DNA of 51,594 nucleotides, from the IMG/VR virus record IMGVR_UViG_3300031276_000002, positions 1 to 51,594 of that record. One strand, 5' to 3'. This stretch comes from a virus. The notes below the pieces were generated by a model, which was given only the letters and a program-made list of their open reading frames with translations, ran no database searches and was not told the DNA's origin. Position 1 is the stretch's first letter. Every line of letters starts with the position of its first letter. A program made the position numbers and the translations under genes. Below, one piece after another: positions 3,455 to 51,594 of the stretch.

Positions 3455-4882
3455 TCACTTTTTTTCCCTCCATTCAGTATCTTTTTCAAAGTAGATCACC
3501 CCTTGATACAGCCCTAAATCGGCATTATCTACTGTTTTTATCACCGATTCTGTCATCAAATTCTCAATTGTTTGGTCAAAAGACCGCATAAAACCAAGAC
3601 TATTTTTCGAAAAAAGTACGTTTCTATCGGCTCTTTTCTTGAGATAGCTGTACGGAATTATATGTGGATACTCTTTTAACTTCTTATTTCGAACTCCATA
3701 ATTATATTTTTTATTAAAATCCATTTTAAAGTAATCGTTAATTGCATTAATAATATACAGCTCCCTCTCGGAGTCATCGCTATTAACGTCGGTCTTTCCA
3801 AACTGCTCTGATGTGGAAACGATGCAGTGATTAACAAAATAAATTGACCAGTCTAAAATTTCTTCTGTAATAAATGGCTTCCTATAATTATCAGCAACAG
3901 CAAGTATACCGCTTATTTTAAGTACGTTTAGTGCTGCCCTTGTCCACAACTCTGCGAGCCCTTCATCATTGTCCCTTGTCTTTTTTCGTTTGTCCTGCTC
4001 GTACAATACAAATCGTTTTCGCGCTTTAGGGTCAATACCAATTCGAATGTGGGCATCCTTGTTTCCTGTTTCCGTGTTAAATATTTTAGATTCTATACTC
4101 CACGAATACATACACGCTTTATACAAATATTTTAGCAAATCTCTTGATGGTTTCGCACCATGATTAAAATTAGGAATCATAGCAAACTCATCTTTAGGTT
4201 GAGTTACTATGAGAAACCTTGACATAAATCCTTCTTTAAGATTCTCTGTTGTTAGGCTTTCGAAAACTGTTTGCGTTGTTCCCTCACCTATTATTGTTAG
4301 ATTAGGGGAATGTATAATAGCGATATTATCTTTTATAGAAGCATAGCTTTTTCCATAGAAAATCTTATTAGGCCCGCTCTTACTATACAGATCAAGGATT
4401 GCGCGTTTTAGATCTTCTTCGAATGCAGCCGCCTTTGCACTAAGCATTTTTTTAAATCTAATACCGGACTCATTGATTATACAAAAAGAGCTTGGTTTGT
4501 CCGCAGCCGCTTTTATTAGCGCAACACCGCTCGAAAAATCGCTAGCAGTTCTGTAGTTGTAAATAGCTTCCAAACCGAGTTTGTGGAGACCAGATTGTAA
4601 GCGTTCAATACCATCAGTCATTGACTCTTTGCCGGCACCAGTCTGCGCTGTAACTATTAGATACACGTTCAGGCCTGCTTGTGAGATAGAATAGGCTCGT
4701 CCAAGTGTTCCTGATATAAATCCTAAAGCGCCGACTATAGCAGCTTCACGAACCGGATAACGCGCTTGAAGCTCTATGTATTTAGATATTTCGCCAGTTA
4801 TACCTGGAGGATGTCGTATTTTGATTTTTTTATTTTCATATTTTGCCTCAAATTTTCTCGCATTAAAATGTTTTGTGCTCAT
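3455..4882 (-). CDS. DUF3987-type replicative helicase/ATPase
   Basis: This 475-residue protein has a P-loop around residues 83-92 (TAQTGAGKES) in which the usual Ser/Thr after Lys is shifted by a Glu. I recall the same departure in phage DUF3987-like helicases. A Walker-B-like stretch follows near 'SFCIINESG' (about 132-140). DUF3987 proteins are the helicase half of primase-helicase pairs in phages and plasmids and usually sit beside a small primase-polymerase, as here (6064-6939). The inferred role is DNA unwinding at the fork. No strong ribosome site was seen before the ATG. Confidence 0.75.
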   Translation of the reverse strand: MSTKHFNARKFEAKYENKKIKIRHPPGITGEISKYIELQARYPVREAAIVGALGFISGTLGRAYSISQAGLNVYLIVTAQTGAGKESMTDGIERLQSGLHKLGLEAIYNYRTASDFSSGVALIKAAADKPSSFCIINESGIRFKKMLSAKAAAFEEDLKRAILDLYSKSGPNKIFYGKSYASIKDNIAIIHSPNLTIIGEGTTQTVFESLTTENLKEGFMSRFLIVTQPKDEFAMIPNFNHGAKPSRDLLKYLYKACMYSWSIESKIFNTETGNKDAHIRIGIDPKARKRFVLYEQDKRKKTRDNDEGLAELWTRAALNVLKISGILAVADNYRKPFITEEILDWSIYFVNHCIVSTSEQFGKTDVNSDDSERELYIINAINDYFKMDFNKKYNYGVRNKKLKEYPHIIPYSYLKKRADRNVLFSKNSLGFMRSFDQTIENLMTESVIKTVDNADLGLYQGVIYFEKDTEWREKK

Positions 4883-4909: not shown

Positions 4910-5293
4910 TCAGTCATTATTGTCTAGGTAGGCATCAATATACGCAATAACTTTTTCTCGTGCTAATGGAGTTAAGCCATCAAATTGGCTTAATGAAATA
5001 GAGTTGCTTGAAATTGCATTTATTAGCACTTCATACGTTAATTCCCAAATTTGGCCGTAGTACCATCCATCACAGAAAAAAACCGACCTAACTGATAAGC
5101 AATCACTACACGTTTTGAAAATATTTGAATCACCCTCCCATACGCCAAATACATATTCATATTGCTCACCAATACGTATTTCACGTCCACACTCTAAGCA
5201 TCTGTGGCTCTTACTAGCAACAACAATTTTTTCTTTAATAAATTCACAACGCGCCCAACGATCCACATATGCACAAACGCATGAACCACTCAT
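4910..5293 (-). CDS. Zinc-ribbon-like hypothetical protein
   Basis: A 127-residue protein with a CxxC pair at about residues 32-35 (HRCLECGREI), a second pair about 26 residues later (TCSDC) and more Cys near the N-terminus and after the second pair. This is consistent with a structural zinc site. The body is aromatic-rich (GVWEGD, DGWYYGQIW). Similar zinc-ribbon proteins are common next to phage replication genes, but their function is unknown. The AAGGAG site is only about 2 nt from the ATG, which is unusually close. Confidence 0.6.
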   Translation of the reverse strand: MSGSCVCAYVDRWARCEFIKEKIVVASKSHRCLECGREIRIGEQYEYVFGVWEGDSNIFKTCSDCLSVRSVFFCDGWYYGQIWELTYEVLINAISSNSISLSQFDGLTPLAREKVIAYIDAYLDNND

Positions 5294-5294
5294 C

Positions 5295-5585
5295 TCATTC
5301 TCCTTGTTTTACCTCTGTGAGGGTTTCGCGCCAGTTTGCTACTCTTGCAAGATGATGAGTGCTCCAATGAACTTCTATAGCTTGAGGATACTTTCTATCA
5401 GATTCGTTACCAATATTATATGATACTACTCCATTCTTATCTACTGCAACGTGAGTAGTACCTTCTGGCACTTCAACCTCAATCATTATTTTTACTGTTT
5501 TCATCTCCATTTTATTATCTCCTTTCACTATCCAGTTTTGTTCTTGCTCATCCAAATAATCATAATAATCATTATACAATTTCAT
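5295..5585 (-). CDS. Small tandem-family protein, copy 1 (two possible starts)
   Basis: This is the third transcribed member of a three-gene family with 5582-5800 and 5816-6067. The shared core is a beta-rich stretch, EVEVPEGTTHVAVDKNGVV, followed by a C-terminal NWRETL. The ATG at 5585 overlaps the upstream stop as ATGA and follows AAGGAG, giving 96 aa. A second in-frame ATG at 5510, also with a strong AAGGAG 8 nt before it, would give 71 aa and matches the length of the other copies. Both products may be made. The function is unknown. Confidence 0.6.
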   Translation of the reverse strand: MKLYNDYYDYLDEQEQNWIVKGDNKMEMKTVKIMIEVEVPEGTTHVAVDKNGVVSYNIGNESDRKYPQAIEVHWSTHHLARVANWRETLTEVKQGE

Positions 5586-5815: not shown

Positions 5816-6067
5816 TTAATTTATCTTACAACATGTTTTTTCCCAGTGTTTTATACCTCCATTACCACAGTCATAACTGTGTGCCTTTACGACAGATACT
5901 TTATAGTTACTTTTATTAACATTGTTTAGTTTAACAAAATGTTCCATGTCCGTATGTGGAAAAATAGGCTCAGTAGACCAAAATACAGAACCATTTTTAT
6001 TTATACCAACGTAATTAGCTTCTTCTGGAACAATTACATTTATTTCCATTTTAATAACTTTGTTCAT
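5816..6067 (-). CDS. Small tandem-family protein, copy 3 (most diverged)
   Basis: This 83-residue paralogue carries the family core (INVIVPEEANYVGINKNGSV) plus an insertion and a Cys-containing tail (HWEKTCCKIN). Its ATG overlaps the primase-polymerase stop as ATGA, so the two are translationally coupled. That coupling and the triplication suggest an accessory role at the replication fork, but this is inference. No catalytic residues are apparent. Confidence 0.6.
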   Translation of the reverse strand: MNKVIKMEINVIVPEEANYVGINKNGSVFWSTEPIFPHTDMEHFVKLNNVNKSNYKVSVVKAHSYDCGNGGIKHWEKTCCKIN

Positions 6068-6939
6068 CTTAAAATCTCCTTGGTTTCAATTGTTTTTTTT
6101 AAAAGTTTCTTTTTCAAAAGTTTCTTTTTCACTTTATTGTTAAATCTGTATATATTTATTAATGGTATTTCTGTTGAACGCATACGATTTATTGTGTAAT
6201 CAATGTATGATTGCCTATGTGCTTTATCGCGTTTTCCTAGTGCTGACATGTGAAATAAGCGAACAACTTGCTCGTCATTTTTTGAATAAAAACCAAGTAT
6301 ACTGCAAAGAGCTAAATCAGCTTCTGATTGACTTTGGTAATAAGCTTCCCAGTTTCCTGTCCACAATATTTCAAATTTATTGCTATCAAAAGCATTGCGT
6401 GCTTTTCGAAGCAATTCAGTGTCCGATTCTTTTTCAGGTTGAGATGCTATCTGCCTCGCTTTTCTATGTTGTTTAACTTCAGAGCAAAGCGTATTTATAA
6501 AGTGTTGTCTGTATTTTATTTTTGTTCTATCAGCAATGCAGTTTCCTGTTAATAATAGATATCTATTATGTGCACGCATTTCCACATTGTCTTGTGCAAA
6601 ATTTATTGCTTTTTTTGCTCTAACAATTATATGTACGCCTCGACCACTAAGGCTAGTCTCAGTATAGCTATTCGCGTTTGCTACTATTCGTTTAAAACGC
6701 TGCTTTTGTTCCTCTGTGGCTGGTTTATCTTCGTGGTCATCTAAATCTATTCCTACAAAAGGATCGTTTTTTGTAAAGACAAAACCAATATGTGGAAACC
6801 CTGCTTCAACAATCTCTTTGTAAGTGCTGTAGGTAAGGGGATCATCCAATAGAGCGTTGCTTCCATTTGGATGTAGCGGAACTTTATCTTCGGTAGTCCC
6901 TATCCATTGTGGATACGCTTTTAGCTCATTCGGAATCAT
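6064..6939 (-). CDS. NrS-1-like primase-polymerase
   Basis: This 291-residue protein matches the N-terminal archaeo-eukaryotic primase-polymerase module of phage NrS-1 type enzymes. It has the catalytic D65-x-D67 in 'VGIDLDDH' and the SGRGVH motif (S98 to H103). Family members make primers, and often DNA, de novo from a specific template sequence. The protein is truncated relative to NrS-1 polymerase, lacking its large helicase part, which here is the separate DUF3987 gene. The last 23 codons are Lys/Leu-rich and contain a 15-bp tandem duplication (about 6099-6130). The start has GAGGA 4 nt upstream. Confidence 0.82.
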   Translation of the reverse strand: MIPNELKAYPQWIGTTEDKVPLHPNGSNALLDDPLTYSTYKEIVEAGFPHIGFVFTKNDPFVGIDLDDHEDKPATEEQKQRFKRIVANANSYTETSLSGRGVHIIVRAKKAINFAQDNVEMRAHNRYLLLTGNCIADRTKIKYRQHFINTLCSEVKQHRKARQIASQPEKESDTELLRKARNAFDSNKFEILWTGNWEAYYQSQSEADLALCSILGFYSKNDEQVVRLFHMSALGKRDKAHRQSYIDYTINRMRSTEIPLINIYRFNNKVKKKLLKKKLLKKTIETKEILR

Positions 6940-7418: not shown

Positions 7419-7451
7419 CAAAAAGTTTGCGCAAAAAAACAAGGAGAAAAA

Positions 7452-7691
7452 ATGATTTTAAAAATTAGAATGAGTAGGCATGGAAGCCTGTTATTAAATA
7501 CTTGTCCGGCTGATGCTATAACGAGATCATTCCCAGTAAAAGTAGGATCAATAGTATGTGCGGAATGTCCGCACAACAAAAGAACAGATTATGAAAAAAT
7601 GGAAGTTGAATGCTGCTATTCACAAGATTTAAAAAGCAAAAAAGAACAATTTGTAGAATATGTATTAAAAAATAAATTAGCCAATAAATAA
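7452..7691 (+). CDS. Cys-rich small early protein
   Basis: First gene of the rightward operon, 79 aa. It has a strong ribosome site (ACAAGGAG) directly after the promoter region. The centre has a Cys cluster (CPAD..., CAECPH, ECC) that may bind a metal. The function is unknown. The leader matches 16 nt of the putative antisense small RNA (7434-7449), so translation of this gene may be its target. Confidence 0.6.
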   Translation: MILKIRMSRHGSLLLNTCPADAITRSFPVKVGSIVCAECPHNKRTDYEKMEVECCYSQDLKSKKEQFVEYVLKNKLANK

Positions 7692-14168: not shown

Positions 14169-14196
14169 GCCCCCTCTTTTGAGGGGGCACTTTTTT
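14169..14196 (+). terminator. Rho-independent terminator, abutting the next start codon
   Basis: The 8-bp perfect stem GCCCCCTC (14169-14176) and GAGGGGGC (14181-14188) closes a TTTT loop and is followed by a run of six T (14191-14196). The ATG of the following nuclease gene starts at 14200, only 4 nt after the T run, so this structure is also a candidate attenuator of that gene. Confidence 0.88.
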
Positions 14197-14199
14197 ATT

Positions 14200-16885: not shown

Positions 16886-16942
16886 TTGTTGACACACCTG
16901 AGTGTGTGAGTAATAATCCTATTATCAGGTGGCAATAAAGCC
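16886..16942 (+). repeat. 57-bp direct repeat, copy 1 (promoter and operator)
   Basis: It matches 19396-19452 with a single difference (16898 C versus 19408 A). It contains TTGACA at 16889-16894, an AATAAT or TAATAA box at 16911-16917, and the palindrome ACACAC/GTGTGT (16892-16907) over the spacer. Confidence 0.9.
16889..16917 (+). promoter_or_regulatory. Cassette promoter with operator-like palindrome
   Basis: A consensus -35 TTGACA (16889-16894) is followed after 17 bp by AATAAT (16912-16917). TAATAA at 16-bp spacing is an alternative. The ACACAC...GTGTGT inverted repeat covers -35 and spacer and is kept in the second copy, apart from its unpaired centre, as expected of a repressor site. 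It drives the IbrA/IbrB-like operon. Confidence 0.65.
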
Positions 16943-16965
16943 ACATATAAACAAGGAGAAATAAA

Positions 16966-17286
16966 ATGACAACTTATTTCGTAAAAATAGCAAATCCGCA
17001 AATGGAAGAATATATTATCAGCGCCGATACTCCTATTGAGGCAGCAACAAAAGCTTCAAAAATGGCAGTTGTAGAGTTAATACCGACTATTGGACAAGCT
17101 TGTAATGATATTAGGGTAACGTGGAATAATAAAACAGTTACACCTTGCGAATCAGAAGACATTTTCGATGGATTACTAAAAAAACAAGAGTCTCACGAAT
17201 ATTTTGACTATGCAGATTTCTGGTGGGATGAAAACGGCATAATATTACAAAACGATGAAGGTTCGATGTTTGGTGAACATGAATGA
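16966..17286 (+). CDS. Accessory-cassette hypothetical protein, 106 aa
   Basis: The first gene of the promoter-bracketed cassette. It has a good site (ACAAGGAG) before its ATG, and the stop overlaps the next ATG (ATGA). The sequence is an acidic mixed alpha/beta protein with an aromatic C-terminal half (YFDYADFWWDE). The family is not recognised. Its leader matches 14 nt of the putative antisense small RNA. Confidence 0.55.
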   Translation: MTTYFVKIANPQMEEYIISADTPIEAATKASKMAVVELIPTIGQACNDIRVTWNNKTVTPCESEDIFDGLLKKQESHEYFDYADFWWDENGIILQNDEGSMFGEHE

Positions 17287-19365: not shown

Positions 19366-19397
19366 AAAATTATTTTTGATTAATTTTTATTTTTTTT
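19366..19397 (+). terminator. Weak AT-only terminator ending the IbrAB-like cassette
   Basis: The arms AAAATTA (19366-19372) and TAATTTT (19381-19387) form a 7-bp stem followed by a T-rich run up to the second promoter repeat. Stability is low, so this is a suggestion only. Confidence 0.35.
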
Positions 19398-19452
19398 GTT
19401 GACACACATGAGTGTGTGAGTAATAATCCTATTATCAGGTGGCAATAAAGCC
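19396..19452 (+). repeat. 57-bp direct repeat, copy 2 (promoter and operator)
   Basis: It is identical to 16886-16942 except at 19408. It carries TTGACA (19399-19404), the ACACAC/GTGTGT palindrome and the AATAAT box, so it is a second promoter, here driving the 19476 gene and the repeat-protein cassette. Confidence 0.9.
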
Positions 19453-19475: not shown

Positions 19476-19661
19476 ATGACTATAGGATTTGACGCAATCG
19501 AAATGAAAAGAGTAAATTCAGAGGTAACCCTAAATAAATATGCTGACCCGATTGAAGGTGAACGCTTCGACCTCACCATCGAAGAAGCTGAAGACATAGC
19601 TAGCGTAGATCCGAGTCTTATTTATTTTGAGCCATCAGAGACGATGACTAGACTGATTTGA
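19476..19661 (+). CDS. Small acidic hypothetical protein, 61 aa
   Basis: It is expressed from the second copy of the cassette promoter, with AAGGAG upstream of its ATG. It is acidic with no recognised domain. Its last five codons (MTRLI) and stop lie inside the first 102-bp repeat, which shows the repeat junction replaced the original gene end or was captured with it. Confidence 0.55.
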   Translation: MTIGFDAIEMKRVNSEVTLNKYADPIEGERFDLTIEEAEDIASVDPSLIYFEPSETMTRLI

Positions 19662-19741
19662 CCTCCATCCCGCCCATCACTCCGGTGGTGGACGGCAGTG
19701 GGAGCCAAATTAATTGGCAAAAAACAAGGAGAAAAAAATGA
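19640..19741 (+). repeat. 102-bp direct repeat, copy 1 (hairpin plus ribosome site)
   Basis: It matches 20790-20891 with two substitutions (GAC versus TGC at 19691-19693). It carries an 11-bp stem closed by a TCCG (UNCG-type) tetraloop (19670-19695) and ends in a ribosome site and start codon. Confidence 0.9.
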
Positions 19742-20487
19742 AACGTGCATTGAAAAAAAATAAAAAACAATACTGGGGTGATCTTTCTGGTGTTCGTGGC
19801 GATCTCTCTTACGTTCGGGGCGATCTATCTAACGTTCGTGGCGACCTATCTGGTATTCTGGGCGATCTCTCTTACGTTCGGGGCGATCTATCTAACGTTC
19901 GTGGCGATCTATCTGGTATTCTGGGCGATCTATCTGATGTTCACGGCAACCTAGCAGGCGTTCGTGGTGACCTATCTAGCATACGAGGTGACATAACTGG
20001 TGTTAGGGGAAATCTCTCTTATGTTCATGGCGATCTCTCTTACGTTCGGGGTGATCTATCTAGCGTTCATGGCGACCTATCTGGTATTCTTGGCGATCTA
20101 TCTTATGCTATAGGTGACCTAACTTACGTTCGTGGTGACCTATCTAGCATACGAGGTGACATAACTGGTGTTAGGGGAAATCTCTCTTATGTTCGTGGCG
20201 ATCTCTCTTACGTTCGTGGCGATTTATCTTATGCTCGTGGCGATCTCTCTTATGTTCGTGGCGATCTATCTAGGGTTTGGGGCGATCTATCTAACGTTCG
20301 TGGCGACCTATCTGGTATTCTGGGCGATCTATCTAGCGTTTGGGGCGATCTATCTAACGTTCGTGGCGACCTAACTGGTGTTTTGGGTGATCTATCTGAC
20401 GTGATTGGAGATATGGATGTATGCGAAATAAAAAAAGAGGATAGAGAAAACGGGATTTATATTGAGGATCTTATTATAATTGAATGA
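19738..20487 (+). CDS. Heptapeptide-repeat (GDLSxVR) beta-solenoid-like protein
   Basis: A 249-residue protein with a basic 13-residue start followed by 30 tandem heptads of consensus G-D-L-S-x-V-R (residues 14-223). It ends with a cap (GDMDVCEIKKEDRENGIYIEDLI). The 7-residue period with Gly-Asp and alternating hydrophobics suggests a parallel beta-helix. I recall other phage and bacterial proteins with GD/GN-type solenoid repeats and the same CEI...GI.I.DL cap, all of unknown function. The ATG at 19738 has AAGGAG upstream. The in-frame TTG at 19714 is unlikely. Confidence 0.7.
   Translation: MKRALKKNKKQYWGDLSGVRGDLSYVRGDLSNVRGDLSGILGDLSYVRGDLSNVRGDLSGILGDLSDVHGNLAGVRGDLSSIRGDITGVRGNLSYVHGDLSYVRGDLSSVHGDLSGILGDLSYAIGDLTYVRGDLSSIRGDITGVRGNLSYVRGDLSYVRGDLSYARGDLSYVRGDLSRVWGDLSNVRGDLSGILGDLSSVWGDLSNVRGDLTGVLGDLSDVIGDMDVCEIKKEDRENGIYIEDLIIIE
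19777..20406 (+). repeat. 21-bp tandem repeat, 30 units
   Basis: Each unit encodes one GDLSxVR heptad. Neighbouring units differ mainly at the variable codon, and blocks of three units (for example the triplet ending GIL) recur, which shows expansion by multi-unit duplication. Confidence 0.85.
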
Positions 20488-20510
20488 CGACAAAAACAAG
20501 GAGAAAGAAA

Positions 20511-20801
20511 ATGACTTTTACAGAAATGTATGAAACAGCTCGCAAACTTTATGTTGAAACACACAGACCCATAAACCCAGTGATACGGTATTTTAGCGAT
20601 GGAGATTGGGCAATCAGGTCAGAGCTCACACTGGACGACGCTGTCGAGGCGCAATGTGAACTCGACTCGTTGTATTCGTTTTTCCAGGAAGTTGACTCGT
20701 ATGATCCAGACAGTAACGGATACATACCGAGTGACGAAGACGAGAAAGCGTTTCTGGAGGCTTTGCAAGAGCATGCCACCGAAATCCGCGACGATGACTA
20801 G
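20511..20801 (+). CDS. Hypothetical acidic protein, 96 aa
   Basis: The start is placed at 20511 with ACAAGGAG upstream. An ATG at 20484 overlaps the previous stop but lacks a site. The protein is strongly acidic (SDGDW, DSYDPDSNGY, DEDEKAF) and helical. No family is recognised. DNA-mimic function is possible for such a protein but unproven. Its stop lies within the second 102-bp repeat, read in another frame than in copy 1. GC content is higher than in core genes. Confidence 0.55.
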   Translation: MTFTEMYETARKLYVETHRPINPVIRYFSDGDWAIRSELTLDDAVEAQCELDSLYSFFQEVDSYDPDSNGYIPSDEDEKAFLEALQEHATEIRDDD

Positions 20802-20891
20802 ACTGATTTGACCTCCATCCCGCCCATCACTCCGGTGGTGTGCGGCAGTGGGAGCCAAATTAATTGGCAAAAAACAAGGAGAAAAAAATGA
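20790..20891 (+). repeat. 102-bp direct repeat, copy 2
   Basis: It differs from 19640-19741 at two positions, both in the hairpin stem (20841-20842). The stem CCGCCCATCAC (20820-20830), TCCG loop and 3' arm (20835-20845) again give 10 of 11 pairs, with the single mismatch moved by one position. Confidence 0.9.
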
Positions 20892-21247
20892 CGACAGTAA
20901 AAGAAAGTATACGTATAATGAATCCTTCGACTGAACTGAAATGTAAGTGCGTAGATTCGATAAGATACTTAATAGATGTAGCAACTGAATTCGAATATGA
21001 TTTTGTTATCGTGGATGGACACCCTGTTGCGACCGTGCATGGTGTTGATAAACTAGATACTTGCGGTTATCCGCGTGAAGCTGCCTCTATGGTTGATTCT
21101 GGAATTACAGGTATGCAAAAGATATATCACCCTTGGGACTGTGAGATCGTCGACGGTGAGCTTATTGAACGTAGTGGATATTATCCACAGTATCGATGGT
21201 TATTTGTTCCGCTAAATGAAGTGTTGACAATACTGGACCAAAAATAA
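20888..21247 (+). CDS. Hypothetical protein, 119 aa
   Basis: It starts at the ATG ending the second 102-bp repeat, with AAGGAG upstream. The sequence is mixed alpha/beta with three Cys and a Trp-rich C-terminal half. No family is recognised. The codon choice is more GC-rich than that of the replication genes, in keeping with acquisition by transfer. Confidence 0.55.
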   Translation: MTTVKESIRIMNPSTELKCKCVDSIRYLIDVATEFEYDFVIVDGHPVATVHGVDKLDTCGYPREAASMVDSGITGMQKIYHPWDCEIVDGELIERSGYYPQYRWLFVPLNEVLTILDQK

Positions 21248-22109: not shown

Positions 22110-22892
22110 ATGCCAAAATTAAGAAACAAAGAACAAGCAATCAAGTTGCTCGGAATAATAAGGGCAACAGGAGGTCGTGAAAATAGAAGTAAAGCAAATC
22201 CACAGTTATATGCTGCAATATTCGGCGGTATTACGCCACGTAATATACAAGACATTCTAATTGACTTATTGACAAATAAATTAATTGAGTATAAAGAAGA
22301 AAAAGGCACTGTAATATATAGTGTTATAGAGAAAGGGTTTGAGTTACTTCCAGATAGACAAAAGCTTATTGACTATTACAATAAGTTTTCGGACTTAGAA
22401 AATCAATACGCAGGTAAAGAAAACAAAGTGAAAGGAAATTCGACAATGGCAAAAAAGAAAATTGAAGTATCCACAATTGAAACAAATGAAACCCCAAAGA
22501 AAAAGAAAACATCGAAAAAAGCTATTGCAAAAAAAGCTGCTATAAAGAAAGTAGCGGCTAAAAAAGAAGTGCCAAAAAAAGCAGCTACAAAAAAGGTAGG
22601 AACAAAGAAGACAATCACAAAAAAGAAAGACGAAAAAGCAGCAACAAAAAGAGGTAGAAAACCAACTGCATATGAGAGTGATGCAATTCCAGCAAGAGAG
22701 GGAACAAAGAAGTATCAGATCTGGAAAGAACTGAACAATATGCGAAAGCGTAGAAAAAATCTCGCTTCTACAGCCGAGATTATGGAAAAACTCGGGACGA
22801 AGTACGGTGCTGGAAGTGTATCTGTCACACTTATGGCATGGCGAAAACATAATGGACTGAAGCCTGAAAGACAGAGAAGATCAAAGCAATAA
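22110..22892 (+). CDS. Histone-H1-like protein with HTH-like ends
   Basis: A 260-residue protein. Residues 1-100 look like a winged-helix domain (TPRNIQDILIDLLTNKLIEYKEEKGTVIY). Residues 125-195 are a Lys/Ala/Pro-rich linker like bacterial H1 tails (KKAAIKKVAAKK). A short C-terminal domain (205-250) has a conserved-looking STAEIMEKLG...VSVTLMAWRKH. It probably binds DNA, as chromatin-like packer or regulator. An in-frame ATG at 22446 with AAAGGA upstream could give a shorter H1-like product. It leads the replication module. Confidence 0.6.
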   Translation: MPKLRNKEQAIKLLGIIRATGGRENRSKANPQLYAAIFGGITPRNIQDILIDLLTNKLIEYKEEKGTVIYSVIEKGFELLPDRQKLIDYYNKFSDLENQYAGKENKVKGNSTMAKKKIEVSTIETNETPKKKKTSKKAIAKKAAIKKVAAKKEVPKKAATKKVGTKKTITKKKDEKAATKRGRKPTAYESDAIPAREGTKKYQIWKELNNMRKRRKNLASTAEIMEKLGTKYGAGSVSVTLMAWRKHNGLKPERQRRSKQ

Positions 22893-22940: not shown

Positions 22941-23924
22941 ATGCTATCTGCTGTTAATTTCATCGCTGGAAGTATATCAACGAGTGACTTGATACCAGCA
23001 CTTAAAAGAATAAATATTTGTGATAGCACACTTAGCACTTGCGATGGAATTATAACAGCGAAAGCTGAATTCAAATATCCACAATGTGGAAACATTGAAT
23101 GCAGTGTTGATGGTAAAAAATTTGTTGCTGCAATAAAATCTATTTCATCATTAGAGTCATTAACATTAGAACAGACTAAATCAAATCTTATAATAAAGAG
23201 TAATAACTTTAAAGCTTATCTTCCAATAGATGCTTATATAGAACATTCCTTATCAGCATTAGATGCTTCAAACACTATAGAAATAAAAAACAGTGACTTT
23301 AAAGACGCATTAAAAAGCCTTACGCCTTTTATTGCAGTTGACGGTCAAACGTATTGGGCAGGTGGTGTTCTTCTAAAAGGATCTTCTTTATTTGCTACTG
23401 ATAGTAAAACGCTTATCCAAAAAAAACTTCCGTTCAAAGCTCCAATAAATATTGTAATACCTTTTCAAGCAGTTAAAGAAATCCTTAGAAATAAAGAAGA
23501 TCCTACTGAGATTATTTTTAATGAAAAAATACTGCGCGTTCAATATGGTTCATCACGCTTCTTGGATATAAGTACTATAGACGCTGATTGGCCACCAATT
23601 GAAAAATTACTTAATGACGCTAACTACTCTAATTGTAAATCAATACCTTCTAATTTTTTTGATAACATAAATAAACTTAAAAAATTTGTTGGAGAAGAAA
23701 ACAATCTGTACATATTAAATGGATATTTAAGAACAAGCAGCAATAAAAAAACAGGTGCTGTAATAAAAGGCGCTCCTAAATGCAAAGCTTTATTTGATAT
23801 TGATCAAATATTAAATTTAAAAGGAGTTGCAACTAAAATTGATTTTAGTAAATGGCCGAACAACGTCCCTTTCTTAGGCCATAAATTAAGAGGGATCCTG
23901 TCTGGAAAACAAGGGAATTTTTAA
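22941..23924 (+). CDS. DnaN-like sliding clamp
   Basis: This 327-residue protein reads as a divergent bacterial beta clamp: three repeats of strand-rich sequence, 'NIVIPFQAVKEIL' in the position of the DnaN IPxK segment, and 'RFLDISTIDADWPPIEKLL' like the conserved domain-2/3 link. Clamps encircle DNA and tether the polymerase. Its gene is directly followed by the family A polymerase, so it likely serves that enzyme. The start has TAGGAG upstream. The usual length is about 366, so this is slightly short. Confidence 0.72.
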   Translation: MLSAVNFIAGSISTSDLIPALKRINICDSTLSTCDGIITAKAEFKYPQCGNIECSVDGKKFVAAIKSISSLESLTLEQTKSNLIIKSNNFKAYLPIDAYIEHSLSALDASNTIEIKNSDFKDALKSLTPFIAVDGQTYWAGGVLLKGSSLFATDSKTLIQKKLPFKAPINIVIPFQAVKEILRNKEDPTEIIFNEKILRVQYGSSRFLDISTIDADWPPIEKLLNDANYSNCKSIPSNFFDNINKLKKFVGEENNLYILNGYLRTSSNKKTGAVIKGAPKCKALFDIDQILNLKGVATKIDFSKWPNNVPFLGHKLRGILSGKQGNF

Positions 23925-25931
23925 TTGTCTTTATTTTGGGATACAGATATAAAAACACGTAAACGTGTTACAAGGATACCTCCGTTTCCACATACCGGAT
24001 GGAAAGCTCCCAAAGAATTTCCGCGTCTATCTAATGCATCTGTAATAGGTTTGGATACAGAAACATATGACCCTGGATTAAAACTTAGAGGACCGGGGTG
24101 GGCAAGAAAAGAAGGCCATATTGTCGGCGTTTCTATTGCCGCTGATACTGATGGTAAATGGTATTTTCCAATTCGTCATGAGGTTTGTGTTTCTGAAAAT
24201 TTAAATCCTAAAAAAGTTATTGCTTGGCTTAAAGATGTTTTATCCACATCACAGCCTAAGGTTGGTGCTAATCTTATTTACGATCTAGGATGGCTTGAAG
24301 AAGAAGACATTATAGTAAATGGGGAATTATTTGATGTACAAAATGCAGAAGCGTTGCTTGTAGAAAACGAAAAAGTAGGCCTTGATTATTTAGGTGAACG
24401 CTACTTAGGAGAAGGTAAGGAAACGCAGAAGCTGTATCAATGGCTATCTGAACGATATGGTGGAAAACCAACCTCGGATCAAAGAGCAAATATATACAGA
24501 GCACCACCTAGTTTAGTCGGTCCTTATGCTGAACAGGATGCAGATTTACCAATTCAAATAATTCCTTTTCAAGCTAAAAAATTAAAAAAAGAAAATTTAT
24601 GGAATCTATTTAGAAGAGAAAATAAACTTATTAGACTGCTTATAAGAATGAGGCAGCACGGTGTTCGCGTTGATGTGGATAAAGCAGAACAGGTTAGTGA
24701 GAAACTTAATATAGAATTAATAAATGAACAAAAAGCACTTGATTGGCTTTGTAAACAGAAAGTAAATGTAAATGCTAATGCGAGTATTCAATCAGCATTT
24801 GACAGCTTAGGTGTTGGCTATCCGTACACACCTAGCGGTAATCCTAGTTTTACAAAAGACTTTTTAAAATCATGTCGACATCCAATTGGACAAAAAATTA
24901 TCGACATTAGAAAATTGTCAAAACTTAAAAATGATTTTGTGGATAAAGCTATTCTTGATCACAATGTTAATGGACGTATACATTGTGTATTCCATCAATT
25001 AAAATCTGATAGCAACGGTGCTCGTTCTGGTAGGTTATCTGCTACAGATCCTAATTTACAACAGGTTCCTAGCAGAGATAAAAAATTAGCGCCTTTAGTA
25101 CGTGGTTGTTTTGTACCAGATTACGGACATAAACAATTTAAACGACAAGATGCTTCTCAAGTTGAGTACAGATTTTTAGTTAATTATGCAGTTGGTAAAA
25201 GTGGAAAATTAATAAGAAGTGCATATAATAAAAATCCGTTTACTGATTATCATAAGCTAACACAAGATCTTGTTAAGAATGAAACTGGAATATTTTTAGA
25301 TCGAAAACCAATTAAAAATATTAATTTTGGTATTGTATATGGAATGCAAGTGTATAAATTATCGCGTCAATTAAACATACCATTAGATGAAGCTGAACAT
25401 TTATTAAATGCATACCATGAAGGCGCACCGTTTGTTAAAGATACTATGGACTACTGCTCTAATTTTGCATCGCAAACAGGATATATAACAACAATACTCG
25501 GTAGAAGATCTAGATTTAATTTGTGGGAACCAGCAGATTATTCCGGACCAAAAGATAGTAAGCCACCCGCACTTCCATACAAAGCAGCGCTTAAAAACTA
25601 TGGTGGAAATATTACGCGTGCTTGGGTTTATCGCGCGTTAAATAGAAGGCTACAAGGAAGTTCTGCTGACTTAATGAAAGAGAGCATGCTACAGTGTGAT
25701 GAAGCGGGTTACTTTGATGAGATAGGCGTCCCATTGCTTACAATACATGATGAGCTTGGGTTTTCAGATCCAGGCGGAAAGGATAAAATATTTAAAGAAA
25801 TTATGACTACGTGTGAGAATGCAATAAAAATAAAAATACCAATTATAATTGAAGAAGAAACCGGTCCTGATTGGGGACACACTAAACTAACAAAAGCATG
25901 TAAATTAAGAAAGGAAAATTATAACAAATGA
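23925..25931 (+). CDS. polA-like: Family A DNA polymerase with 3'-5' exonuclease
   Basis: A 668-residue enzyme. The DEDDy exonuclease is seen as D44-x-E46 (GLDTETYDP), D120 (GANLIYD) and Y201...D205. Polymerase motif A is QDASQVEYR (D409), motif B RKPIKNINFGIVYG (R460, K464, F468, Y472), and motif C IHDE (H608, D609, E610). No 5'-3' exonuclease domain is present, as in most phage PolA enzymes. The gene starts at TTG one base after the clamp stop, so the two are coupled. It is the main replicative polymerase of the phage. Confidence 0.93.
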   Translation: MSLFWDTDIKTRKRVTRIPPFPHTGWKAPKEFPRLSNASVIGLDTETYDPGLKLRGPGWARKEGHIVGVSIAADTDGKWYFPIRHEVCVSENLNPKKVIAWLKDVLSTSQPKVGANLIYDLGWLEEEDIIVNGELFDVQNAEALLVENEKVGLDYLGERYLGEGKETQKLYQWLSERYGGKPTSDQRANIYRAPPSLVGPYAEQDADLPIQIIPFQAKKLKKENLWNLFRRENKLIRLLIRMRQHGVRVDVDKAEQVSEKLNIELINEQKALDWLCKQKVNVNANASIQSAFDSLGVGYPYTPSGNPSFTKDFLKSCRHPIGQKIIDIRKLSKLKNDFVDKAILDHNVNGRIHCVFHQLKSDSNGARSGRLSATDPNLQQVPSRDKKLAPLVRGCFVPDYGHKQFKRQDASQVEYRFLVNYAVGKSGKLIRSAYNKNPFTDYHKLTQDLVKNETGIFLDRKPIKNINFGIVYGMQVYKLSRQLNIPLDEAEHLLNAYHEGAPFVKDTMDYCSNFASQTGYITTILGRRSRFNLWEPADYSGPKDSKPPALPYKAALKNYGGNITRAWVYRALNRRLQGSSADLMKESMLQCDEAGYFDEIGVPLLTIHDELGFSDPGGKDKIFKEIMTTCENAIKIKIPIIIEEETGPDWGHTKLTKACKLRKENYNK

Positions 25932-26224
25932 CTGAATCAAATATAGTCTATCAAGTATGCTCTTTTCATTCACCGCATAATAGAAATAATTTACGCTGTA
26001 GAAACGCTTTTTTTATAAAAGATGCAAGAGAAATCTTATGCATGCATATAGACAATAAACAATCCAAATGTACTTGTGAAGAGCAACAAATAAAAATAAT
26101 AGAAATGATGTGGACAGATTCTCTTTTATCAAAAAATAAATACAATGAAAAATTAAAAACAGTACCGAAATCTTATTATACAAATGGACCAGTCCCATTG
26201 AAATACAAGGAGAAAATTTCTTAA
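25928..26224 (+). CDS. Cys/His-rich small protein
   Basis: A 98-residue protein with Cys and His in the N-terminal 55 residues (C12, H15, H18, C25, C39, H41, CTC at about 49-51), suggesting a metal site. It overlaps the polymerase gene as ATGA and its stop overlaps the lysin start. The family is not recognised. Confidence 0.55.
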   Translation: MTESNIVYQVCSFHSPHNRNNLRCRNAFFIKDAREILCMHIDNKQSKCTCEEQQIKIIEMMWTDSLLSKNKYNEKLKTVPKSYYTNGPVPLKYKEKIS

Positions 26225-48247: not shown

Positions 48248-48481
48248 TTATACTTCTCTTGGTACTACACGTTGCATTTTAATTCTATTACCGGACAGTA
48301 GTGTCTCTAAATCGCCTTCTAAACGCCGTATTTCTCTAGCTAGACTGTCCAGCTGGGCTTGATCGATAGAGCGGCTGGAAACGCTCACAGATTGCCCAGC
48401 AAGCAATACACGCGTCTCTGCGGCGCGGTATCGCGCCAATCTCGCCTCAATCTCTGCAATTTTTTCTTCACGCGTTGCCAT
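48248..48481 (-). CDS. gpW-like head-tail joining protein
   Basis: A 77-residue protein beginning MATREEKIAEIEARL. The ATG at 48481 has AGGAG 7 nt upstream. A TTG at 48532 would lie inside the promoter region. It has two helices with a beta hairpin between (LLAGQSVSVSS), as gpW does, and lies immediately before the portal gene as in lambda. It completes the head-tail connector. Confidence 0.72.
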   Translation of the reverse strand: MATREEKIAEIEARLARYRAAETRVLLAGQSVSVSSRSIDQAQLDSLAREIRRLEGDLETLLSGNRIKMQRVVPREV

Positions 48482-48502
48482 TAGACAACTCCTTGTACAC
48501 AT

Positions 48503-48532
48503 ACTGTAAAACACAAAGCAAGTAGTTGTCAA
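48503..48532 (-). promoter_or_regulatory. Possible late promoter upstream of gpW
   Basis: On the minus strand TTGACA (48532-48527) is followed after 18 bp by TACAGT (48508-48503). It lies directly after the small RNA terminator, as would be needed to restart transcription into gpW and the portal. The -10 match is only moderate (4 of 6). Confidence 0.35.
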
Positions 48533-48533
48533 T

Positions 48534-48560
48534 AAAAAGATGCCCCCTCGGATTAGGGGC
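48534..48560 (-). terminator. Rho-independent terminator of the putative small RNA
   Basis: On the minus strand GCCCCT (48560-48555) pairs with AGGGGC (48548-48542, with one extra G) and is followed by ATC and five T (48538-48534). It would end the small RNA and also reduce read-through from the terminase genes into gpW. Confidence 0.6.
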
Positions 48561-48695
48561 TAGATAAGACCAAAAAACAAGGAGAAATTTTTGTCTCTAG
48601 TATCCGAAGCCAGGTTCTATTGTAGGATCCTTACAACCTGCACTAGAGAGTGTCGTCGAGTTACGGTCACTATGCTAAGACCAATAACTCACACT
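48534..48695 (-). ncRNA. Putative antisense small RNA between terL and gpW
   Basis: The terminase large and gpW genes are separated by a 250-nt gap (48482-48733) with no minus-strand gene. On the minus strand it reads as a short RNA: hairpin 1 (48695-48649, three nested stems of 5, 6 and 4 bp), hairpin 2 (48649-48594, stems of 8 and 6 bp), a linker containing UUUCUCCUUGUUUUUUG (48587-48571), and a terminator. The linker is complementary to the AACAAGGAGAAA ribosome sites of several plus-strand genes. It may be an antisense regulator of early translation. Confidence 0.5.
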
Positions 48696-48701
48696 ATCTT
48701 T

Positions 48702-48728
48702 ATTATCACAGTTAAACCTAGCAGTCAA
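48702..48728 (-). promoter_or_regulatory. Promoter of the putative small RNA
   Basis: On the minus strand TTGACT (48728-48723) precedes an extended -10 TGTGATAAT (hexamer 48707-48702, spacing 15). TAATAA at 48705-48700 gives a 17-bp spacing. Transcription would start near 48697, at the base of hairpin 1. Confidence 0.5.
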
Positions 48729-48733
48729 AATAA

Positions 48734-50779
48734 TTATAAACCGGGATGACCTTTTTTTCTAATCACTCTTTGCCTAATAACTGCTTCTCCGAATACAGTG
48801 GGTATTCCTAGCTGCGCACGCTGTTCTAAATTTACAGCATAAGATGACCTAGCAACGTAAGAATAATTAAATGTATCTATCGGTTCATTACGCGCACCAC
48901 TAGGATTTTCCCATTTCAAGACTGGTCTACCTGCAACTGTTTTCTCTGTTCGTTTTTCGCAAGTCAGTCCTTTAAAAAACTTTTCATCAAAACATGCCTT
49001 GCGCGGAAAATGTATATAACCGGGACCTGGATCTAATAAAGCAAGAAATGCATATAGCTTAGTTTTCAATTCATCAACAAAAGCTAAATAATCAATCGTC
49101 TTATATTTCTCGTGTCTCCTCTTTGCTCTTCTCCACAATCCGTTACCCCAACCGCCTTTTCCTTTCAAAGGAAATATTCTTCTTGATTCTCTTGAACCAC
49201 AAAATTTATGTACTTGATCATTCTTGTGTCCACAATCGATCATTGTAACTTCAATCGGCATCATTGTGCCTGATTCGTGTTTAAACTTTTTAAGTAAATA
49301 CTCATCCAATAATTTCCAAACAGAAGGATGTCCATTATCAAGCATTAAATATTTATTACCCATCAATTCAGTATCACCAACTAAAACTTTATAGTCAACA
49401 GCGTAGCTTTCTTCAAGAAGCCCCCAAGCATATACTGATACTTCTATTCGATCATCTTGAATATCAACACCTGCTGTTAAGCACAAACCTCCATTAGGAA
49501 CATCATACGAATTTAATTTCCCGCCGTAACTTTCTCTTCTTCCAAATAATCCTGTCGAGTCGATTTCTCCCCCAACAAGACTAAATGTTTCAGCACAAAC
49601 CTGATTCCTAAAAACCTGTAAAAGATTAACATCTCTAGTTCGCAAATATTCAAAAAAATCATGTACTGCATCCTTCCAACTATAAAAACCATATGGCGAA
49701 TAAAATGATGTAATTCTAAATGATGGATTTACAACGTCGCCTACTTTATAACGCGGTAAAGGGTTATCGGGATCGTTTACATTTTTTGTTGAATACCAAT
49801 CACCATGATCTAGCATCCAAGTTTTATGTCGTGATTCATTAATCTCGTATCCACATGCAGGACATTCACACCAAATTTTAATAGGGTCTCCAGTGGATGG
49901 ATTAATTTCTTTAGACCACTTTATTGTATCCCACTCTATCAAAAACATAAAACCATCTTCTCGTTCTGTTAAACTATTATTTGTTATTTTAGCTTTTGGA
50001 TTACAGTTTGGACACGGAACATAATACTGCTCTTGTGAGCCTTCTAGCCATCCTGGTTTTATTGTAGAAAACTCCTCTAGCACTGGTGTTGAATTACGAT
50101 AAAGCTTGCTATTAGGAAAGTTTGTCATTCTACGTTGCAGTAGTTTACGTGGGGATCCTTGCTTACCTACATTAAGTTCGTATTCATCTTCTTCGTCCAT
50201 ACCGGCATCCCTAATAGCTTTTGACTTAAGAAAACCAGTAGAATTAGCTGGACCCATTGCGATAAATCCACCCGGAAAAGTCTTATCTAATAATGAATTG
50301 TAAAATCCCTTTGGTCTACCATTTCCTAATATATCATAGCAAACAGGATTAGCATCTATTGTCGGTTTGAATTTTTGCTTTGAATATTGCTTAACATCCT
50401 CTTCAGTTTTTTGAGTAAATGCAAACGGGCCGGGCATACATACTGCTTTATAAATTTTCCACAACATCAGCAATGTTGTGAATCCTAATTGAGAGCCTTT
50501 CATTCCAACAATTTCACGAGCAATAGAGCTAGGCGAAAGGCATTTCATTATTCTACGTAAAAATGGAAAGCGTTGTGTTCGCCACTTCCCCCATTCATGC
50601 GTAGTTGCTTTAGGTAAACGAAAATTTTCATCTGCCCAGTCATCCATGTCAGGAACTTTTTGAAAACGAAGTGCGGTCATAAAAGAAATTATAATTAATT
50701 TCTTTTTGTATTCCGTTGTTAGAATTTCCACATCCTTTGTGATGTGCTTCTTTTTAGGTCTCCCACGTTTCCGAATCAT
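48734..50779 (-). CDS. terL: Terminase large subunit (GpA family)
   Basis: A 681-residue protein of the lambda gpA family. A P-loop-like motif GMKGSQLGFTTLL is at residues 92-104. A zinc-like pair (CPNC and CECPAC) lies near residues 260-320. The C-terminal nuclease half is present. The N-terminus starts with an AT-hook-like KRGRPKKK. It drives DNA packaging and cuts concatemers, probably at cos. It overlaps terS by 26 nt. Confidence 0.87.
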   Translation of the reverse strand: MIRKRGRPKKKHITKDVEILTTEYKKKLIIISFMTALRFQKVPDMDDWADENFRLPKATTHEWGKWRTQRFPFLRRIMKCLSPSSIAREIVGMKGSQLGFTTLLMLWKIYKAVCMPGPFAFTQKTEEDVKQYSKQKFKPTIDANPVCYDILGNGRPKGFYNSLLDKTFPGGFIAMGPANSTGFLKSKAIRDAGMDEEDEYELNVGKQGSPRKLLQRRMTNFPNSKLYRNSTPVLEEFSTIKPGWLEGSQEQYYVPCPNCNPKAKITNNSLTEREDGFMFLIEWDTIKWSKEINPSTGDPIKIWCECPACGYEINESRHKTWMLDHGDWYSTKNVNDPDNPLPRYKVGDVVNPSFRITSFYSPYGFYSWKDAVHDFFEYLRTRDVNLLQVFRNQVCAETFSLVGGEIDSTGLFGRRESYGGKLNSYDVPNGGLCLTAGVDIQDDRIEVSVYAWGLLEESYAVDYKVLVGDTELMGNKYLMLDNGHPSVWKLLDEYLLKKFKHESGTMMPIEVTMIDCGHKNDQVHKFCGSRESRRIFPLKGKGGWGNGLWRRAKRRHEKYKTIDYLAFVDELKTKLYAFLALLDPGPGYIHFPRKACFDEKFFKGLTCEKRTEKTVAGRPVLKWENPSGARNEPIDTFNYSYVARSSYAVNLEQRAQLGIPTVFGEAVIRQRVIRKKGHPGL

Positions 50780-51494: not shown

Positions 51495-51594
51495 ATTATT
51501 TTTCTTTCATTAAAATTATTCCGTTATAAATTAATAAACTTGTAATTATTAGCAAAAATTAATAATTTTTTTTCATTTGAGCCTTGCCGTGAAC
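51495..51594. other. AT-rich gap with a dyad, upstream of terS and next to the terminal repeat
   Basis: It has no coding sequence. It contains a near-perfect AT dyad, AAAATTA/TAATTTT (around 51556-51570), and the GC-rich terminal repeat 51582-51594. Together with 1-70 it is the place to look for cos subsites. Confidence 0.4.
51582..51594. repeat. 13-bp terminal direct repeat, right copy
   Basis: Identical to positions 1-13. See the left copy for the interpretation as cohesive end or assembly overlap. Confidence 0.9.

Follow-up and report, generated by a model that had tools for sequence, protein, structure and literature searches.

A predicted minus-strand RNA in the terL-gpW gap of an uncultured phage, with a linker complementary to the ribosome sites of distant phage genes

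Introduction

The C-rich anti-Shine-Dalgarno small RNAs of bacteria, such as the streptococcal csRNAs, combine hairpins, an open CUCCUU-type stretch and an intrinsic terminator, and act by pairing with ribosome sites. In the lambda pR'-tR' arrangement, a promoter gives rise to a short terminated RNA, beyond which lie the late genes. Phages P1 and P7 encode the c4 antisense RNA, a structured RNA that pairs around the ribosome site of a phage mRNA and so prevents its translation (PMC12197685). Small RNAs of virulent phages have been seen in transcriptomes, with functions that are almost all unknown (PMC4933390); the same study of phage PAK_P3 names the band C and D RNAs of T4 together with the PAK_P3 sRNAs, of which sRNA1 and sRNA2 are intergenic RNAs of about 100 nt from a virulent phage, strongly late in expression and suspected of pairing in trans (PMC4933390). 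In T4, repression of about 30 mRNAs is exerted by a protein, RegA, and at the lysozyme gene e the ribosome site of read-through RNA is sequestered in a leader hairpin, while a promoter lying over the 5' arm makes RNA that is free of the hairpin (PMC3014915).

The gap between terL and gpW of the uncultured phage described here is predicted to encode, on the minus strand, an RNA that resembles each of these systems in part. Like c4, it would be a phage-encoded structured RNA pairing around ribosome sites (PMC12197685), but c4 has a single target, ant, and a role in immunity, whereas the candidate matches several distant leaders on the opposite strand, in a genome where no integrase was seen, and has no Rfam match. 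With the PAK_P3 sRNAs, detected by RNA-seq, only 11-nt candidate phage targets are associated; the present candidate is predicted from sequence and has leader matches of 14-17 nt. The job proposed for it, to occupy the ribosome sites of numerous early mRNAs as the late genes come on, is that of RegA, which is a protein, whereas the candidate is an RNA that would act by base pairing. Hairpins, an open CUCCUU, a terminator and predicted ribosome-site pairing are shared with the csRNAs, which are bacterial; the candidate is phage-borne, matches no Rfam family and has its predicted targets among the phage's own genes.

Results

Genome and gene modules

The window analyzed is the whole IMG/VR virus record IMGVR_UViG_3300031276_000002, 51,594 bases from an uncultured phage, with a GC content of 35.5%. 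Its two ends (1-13 and 51582-51594) are the identical 13-nt sequence CCTTGCCGTGAAC, adjoining the presumed terS gene. This suggests a closed genome cut beside the gene presumed to encode the small terminase, and the record is probably a complete, circularly closed genome. The minus strand carries a head module of the lambda type comprising terL, gpW, portal, protease, and decoration and major head proteins. Here terL, for the terminase large subunit (48734-50779; phrog_15 match, 7e-162), is followed across the gap by the gpW head-tail connector gene (48248-48481, with an ATG at 48481 and a ribosome site; phrog_118 match, 1.8e-11) and the portal gene (48247-46610). Genes for DNA polymerase A, a polymerase processivity factor, a helicase, a Cas4-type exonuclease, a Sak4-like protein and a single-strand binding protein lie on the plus strand. 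The phage looks virulent, since the proteins scanned included no integrase, although many small ones had no match. A search for tRNA and tmRNA genes returned none.

Several other features of the genome were recorded. Four small genes separate two minus-strand genes, 3455-4882 and 6064-6939, over which a single DNA primase family, phrog_3022, is divided (profile positions 8-316 and 343-785); phrog_7314, a family with no assigned function, is matched by gene 4910-5293. The protein of plus-strand gene 22110-22892 is weakly similar, below threshold, to histone H1-like HC2 proteins. A promoter with its 5' leader, TTGTTGACACAC.TGAGTGTGTGAGTAATAATCCTATTATCAGGTGGCAATAAAGCC, is duplicated on the plus strand at 16886-16942 and 19396-19452. 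The genome's strongest terminator, GCCCCCTCTTTTGAGGGGGC-ACTTTTTT (14169-14199, plus strand), stands directly 5' of the Cas4-like gene 14200, and its tail resembles that of the terminator between terL and gpW.

Anatomy of the terL-gpW gap

An initial annotation had placed, on the minus strand of the gap, a promoter, two nested hairpins, a linker and a Rho-independent terminator in this order. All of these elements, the promoter as a promoter-like site, were found at their places, and both hairpins predicted by minimum free energy folding exist (hairpin 1, 48649-48695; hairpin 2, 48595-48648), but they are adjacent rather than nested. The candidate promoter P1 (48702-48728, minus strand; assigned by consensus only) consists of TTGACT (48728-48723) and an extended -10 element, TGTGATAAT (48710-48702), giving TTGACT-15-GATAAT with a TG, a 15-nt spacer that is under the usual length, and an expected start near 48695. 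On a simple score P1 reached 11, ranking 12 among 2138 promoter-like sites on both strands, and such sites are no commoner than in shuffled sequence. An alternative site, TAGAAA-17-TATAAT, likewise recognized by consensus only, lies inside the end of terL (48733-48761, minus strand; start near 48726); neither this upstream candidate nor the high rank of P1 is evidence of transcription.

Downstream of the hairpins, the linker (48571-48587, minus strand; RNA UUUCUCCUUGUUUUUUG) is complementary, base for base, to plus-strand leaders. About 10 nt after it begins the intrinsic terminator (48542-48560, minus strand), with a stem GCCCC(C)...GGGGGC (GCCCCTAATCCGAGGGGGC) followed by ATCTTTTT to about 48534. 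Its T-run is present on the minus strand only, and it is the only clear terminator of the gap, which in silico has the look of an RNA gene on that strand.

Fold and accessibility

The minus-strand RNA folds at -46 kcal/mol (z = -1.62; 9 of 200 shuffles fold equally well), an ordinary value by which the idea of an exceptional fold was rejected; the plus strand of the gap folds equally well (z = -2.0). Within the linker, CUCCUU (48584-48579) is predicted to be unpaired with a probability of 0.74-0.79, and opening it would cost about 0.2 kcal/mol, compared with 3 kcal/mol for the full 17-mer. The direct repeat TTGGTCTTA, reported for hairpin 1 and the linker, is real, but the switch that had been proposed from it, in which linker and hairpin exchange partners, was rejected on energy: the forced alternative costs 6.3 kcal/mol relative to 0 for the native hairpin, so the two folds are not of similar energy.

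Complementarity to leaders

Exact copies of the linker's complement, CAAAAAACAAGGAGAAA (48571-48587), lie at the ribosome sites of distant genes, confirming the claim of exact complementarity to plus-strand leaders over 17, 17, 16, 15 and 14 nt. The two 17-nt matches are in the predicted target leaders of genes 19738-20487 (19718-19734) and 20888-21247 (20868-20884), the 16-nt match precedes gene 7452-7691, the first of its plus-strand unit (7434-7449), and the 15-nt match precedes gene 20511-20801 (20492-20506). The 14-nt match, in the leader of gene 16966-17286, is real as well, although its true place is 16949-16962, one base away from the coordinates first given. Shorter matches were found at the ribosome site before the minus-strand gene 5293 (5298-5310, 13 nt) and at that before gene 26224 (26205-26215, 11 nt). 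The leaders at 19718 and 20868 belong to one duplicated block and are not independent, so that these two matches count once. This block of about 100 nt, lying upstream of genes 19738 and 20888 (19640-19741 and 20790-20891, plus strand; 51 + 49 identical nt), holds a short palindrome, CCAAATTAATTGG, together with the ribosome site, and is possibly a leader cassette.

With 74 leaders, the true leaders being masked, we compared the longest exact match to any leader in 195-nt windows on both strands. The 17-nt match of the gap is the longest of all windows. When the gap was shuffled 20,000 times with its dinucleotides kept, 1 shuffle reached 17 nt and 13 reached at least 15 nt. Given approximately 530 independent windows, a frequency of 1 in 20,000 would correspond to roughly 0.03 such matches per genome. 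To account for the CUCCUU core itself, duplex energies of the 38-nt linker with 73 leaders were set against controls in which CUCCUU was kept in place and only its flanks were shuffled. For plus-strand leaders, the mean of the best six was -23.5 kcal/mol, compared with -17.5 kcal/mol in these shuffles (fraction as extreme, 0.0007), and ten leaders reached -18 kcal/mol or lower (0.0027); minus-strand leaders showed no pairing excess over the same controls (0.69). In silico, these values support a complementarity that extends past CUCCUU itself, with specificity for plus-strand leaders. The predicted RNA thus has an accessible seed with predicted complementarity, beyond chance, to target ribosome sites.

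In a sliding scan of the genome, the best partner, the linker's own site aside, was the start of the DNA polymerase A gene (23905-23936, plus strand; PF00476). The predicted pairing, at -27.0 kcal/mol, begins in the ribosome site, passes across the TTG start and runs into the first codons; its energy is modestly unusual among core-kept shuffles (0.012). The TTG start is supported by the alignment of polymerase relatives from residue 1.

Relatives and homology searches

Scans with terL and portal across viral contigs and bacterial and archaeal genomes identified four relatives (L168, L169, L170 and L171) with portals 55-61% identical. Their terL-gpW gaps, of about 60-360 nt, are unrelated in sequence, one of them holding an 81-codon gene, and no GC-rich terminator was seen by eye at the matching place in any of the four. 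In distant relatives the terL-gpW junction is occupied by reverse-oriented small genes (L008 2206-2776 and L005 3285-3437). The statement that lambda-type genomes have almost nothing at this position did not hold, as relatives carry 60-720 nt there, sometimes with genes on either strand.

Searches for homologues of the gap by blastn returned none that was convincing in phages and plasmids. Viral contigs gave no homologue either, and a scan of them with the DNA polymerase found nothing. Membership of a known RNA family was rejected, as no covariance model matched the window at its gathering score (only RT-11 appeared, at 13.2 bits against the 143.5 needed). With no homologue and a gap that differs in the four relatives, there is no covariation to draw on for an RNA. 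A pattern search of viral contigs for an anti-leader together with a GC-rich hairpin gave a single match, L183, which was rejected as a relative: there the same AAACAAGGAGAAA site belongs to the start of an ordinary gene on the opposite strand. This match identifies the leader motif as an ordinary strong ribosome site, and the order of sequence elements alone cannot separate an anti-leader RNA from a gene start.

Discussion

The best single explanation of the gap, though a tentative one that we would hold at below even chance, is a trans-acting antisense RNA against early and replication genes. A minus-strand RNA of about 155-195 nt would end at the terminator (48560-48534), its 5' end being made from P1 near 48695, started near 48726 or cut from the 3' end of terL. 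Two hairpins would hold a U-rich linker with CUCCUU exposed, which would pair in trans with A-rich, AAGGAG-bearing plus-strand leaders and block ribosome binding at the first gene of the plus-strand unit, at genes 16966, 19738, 20511 and 20888, and at the DNA polymerase start. Since the RNA would be made from the head-gene strand, translation of replication genes would be lowered while packaging and head genes are on. The anatomy of the gap, the complementarity and its strand specificity are direct observations; from them we infer transcription, stability, timing and repression, including the late synthesis and shut-off of early translation put forward in the initial annotation. The 17-nt match, the plus-strand specificity, the polymerase partner, the open CUCCUU, the terminator, the rank of P1 and the non-coding character of the opposite frame argue for the antisense RNA; the absence of a homologue or Rfam match, the variation of the gap in relatives, the ordinary fold and the 15-nt spacer of P1 argue against it.

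The next most probable explanation, which we consider unlikely on its own, is a transcription boundary that controls the locus in cis only: the terminator would end the terS-terL RNA and a second promoter would start gpW and the head genes, in read-through RNA the gpW ribosome site would be masked by hairpins, and the anti-leader match would be incidental or act in cis on gpW. The order of terminator, promoter and gpW fits this arrangement. A consensus match to a second promoter, TTGACA-18-TACAGT (48503-48532, minus strand), lies directly past the terminator with its expected start at the gpW ribosome site; it probably serves gpW and the genes downstream, judging from the sequence, and in an alignment by eye a similar site, TTGAAA-18-TACAAT, occupies the corresponding position before gpW in L170. 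A predicted hairpin, GACAACTACTTG / CAAGGAGTTGTC (48484-48530, minus strand), would hide the gpW ribosome site between 12-nt arms (48530-48519 paired with 48495-48484) in read-through RNA, and TTGACA (48532-48527) overlaps the 5' arm. T4 gene e has the layout predicted here, in which a promoter runs into the 5' arm of a hairpin that masks the ribosome site, except that here the promoter looks like a sigma-70 promoter and the gene is gpW. The gpW ribosome site, ACAAGGAG (48489-48496, minus strand), is exactly complementary to CUCCUUGU of the linker, and forcing the two to pair in read-through RNA costs 1.25 kcal/mol. The linker may therefore act in cis at gpW, and the terminator may serve only to keep terL apart from gpW. 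What a cis boundary leaves unexplained is the 17-nt identity to distant leaders, since 8 nt would suffice in cis, and the specificity for plus-strand leaders. In one variant, a late promoter is followed by a leader terminator awaiting antitermination, as at lambda pR'-tR'; here, however, the arrangement lies between terL and gpW and has an anti-leader linker added, and no Q-type antiterminator was seen among the proteins scanned, which are part of a proteome with many matchless small proteins.

The complementarity fits a plus-strand ribosome site equally well, and a somewhat less probable account takes the 17 nt as the one that starts a small accessory gene in reverse orientation, or the relic of such a gene, inserted between terL and gpW. 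Behind AAGGAG, at a spacing of 6 nt that is also that of the other leaders, a TTG opens a frame of 52 codons (48591-48749, plus strand), and AAGGAG-6-TTG with 52 open codons arises in 0.6% of shuffles (p = 0.006). Farther relatives have reverse-oriented genes within the same gap (L008 2206-2634 and 2603-2776; Vibrio phage R19R 3285-3437), so that a variable site that takes up accessory genes lends such a gene some weight, and L183 shows the same order, terminator and AAACAAGGAGAAA, as an ordinary gene start. The frame had been named from the outset as the product whose conservation would speak against the RNA; its well-spaced ribosome site and open frame are indeed present, but its codon usage appears non-coding, with a score of -0.20 that is lower than for every real-gene fragment and for the small plus-strand genes and equals the shadow-frame mean, and it has no homologue and no Pfam family, which weakens it as a gene. 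In addition, no promoter-like site lies just upstream of it on the plus strand, the ribosome site would fall within a weak hairpin, and the other exactly matched leaders have ATG starts, not TTG; a search of all six frames of the gap for a protein relic gave nothing significant. Least probable, and in our judgement improbable, is chance, in which the gap is ordinary non-coding sequence that has a terminator and an A-rich stretch happening to look like a leader. The ordinary structure, and the choice of the finding for its oddity, speak for chance, but the match sits within a non-coding gap, beside a terminator and in an open loop, and is complementary to several leaders.

A further point against the trans-acting antisense RNA is that AAACAAGGAGAAA, which also occurs in the unrelated phage L183, is a strong ribosome site of an ordinary kind, so the predicted targets do not have to form a designed regulon. 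A more specific proposal, which we regard as doubtful, makes the RNA a late, base-pairing counterpart of T4 RegA that acts through one open anti-ribosome-site loop; with the same reserve, it would shut off translation of a set of early and replication genes of the phage itself that have a leader in common, DNA polymerase among them, and spare the leaders of the head genes. If this holds true, a phage RNA with predicted target leaders among the phage's own genes would be a clear case of RNA-based switching from early to late expression.
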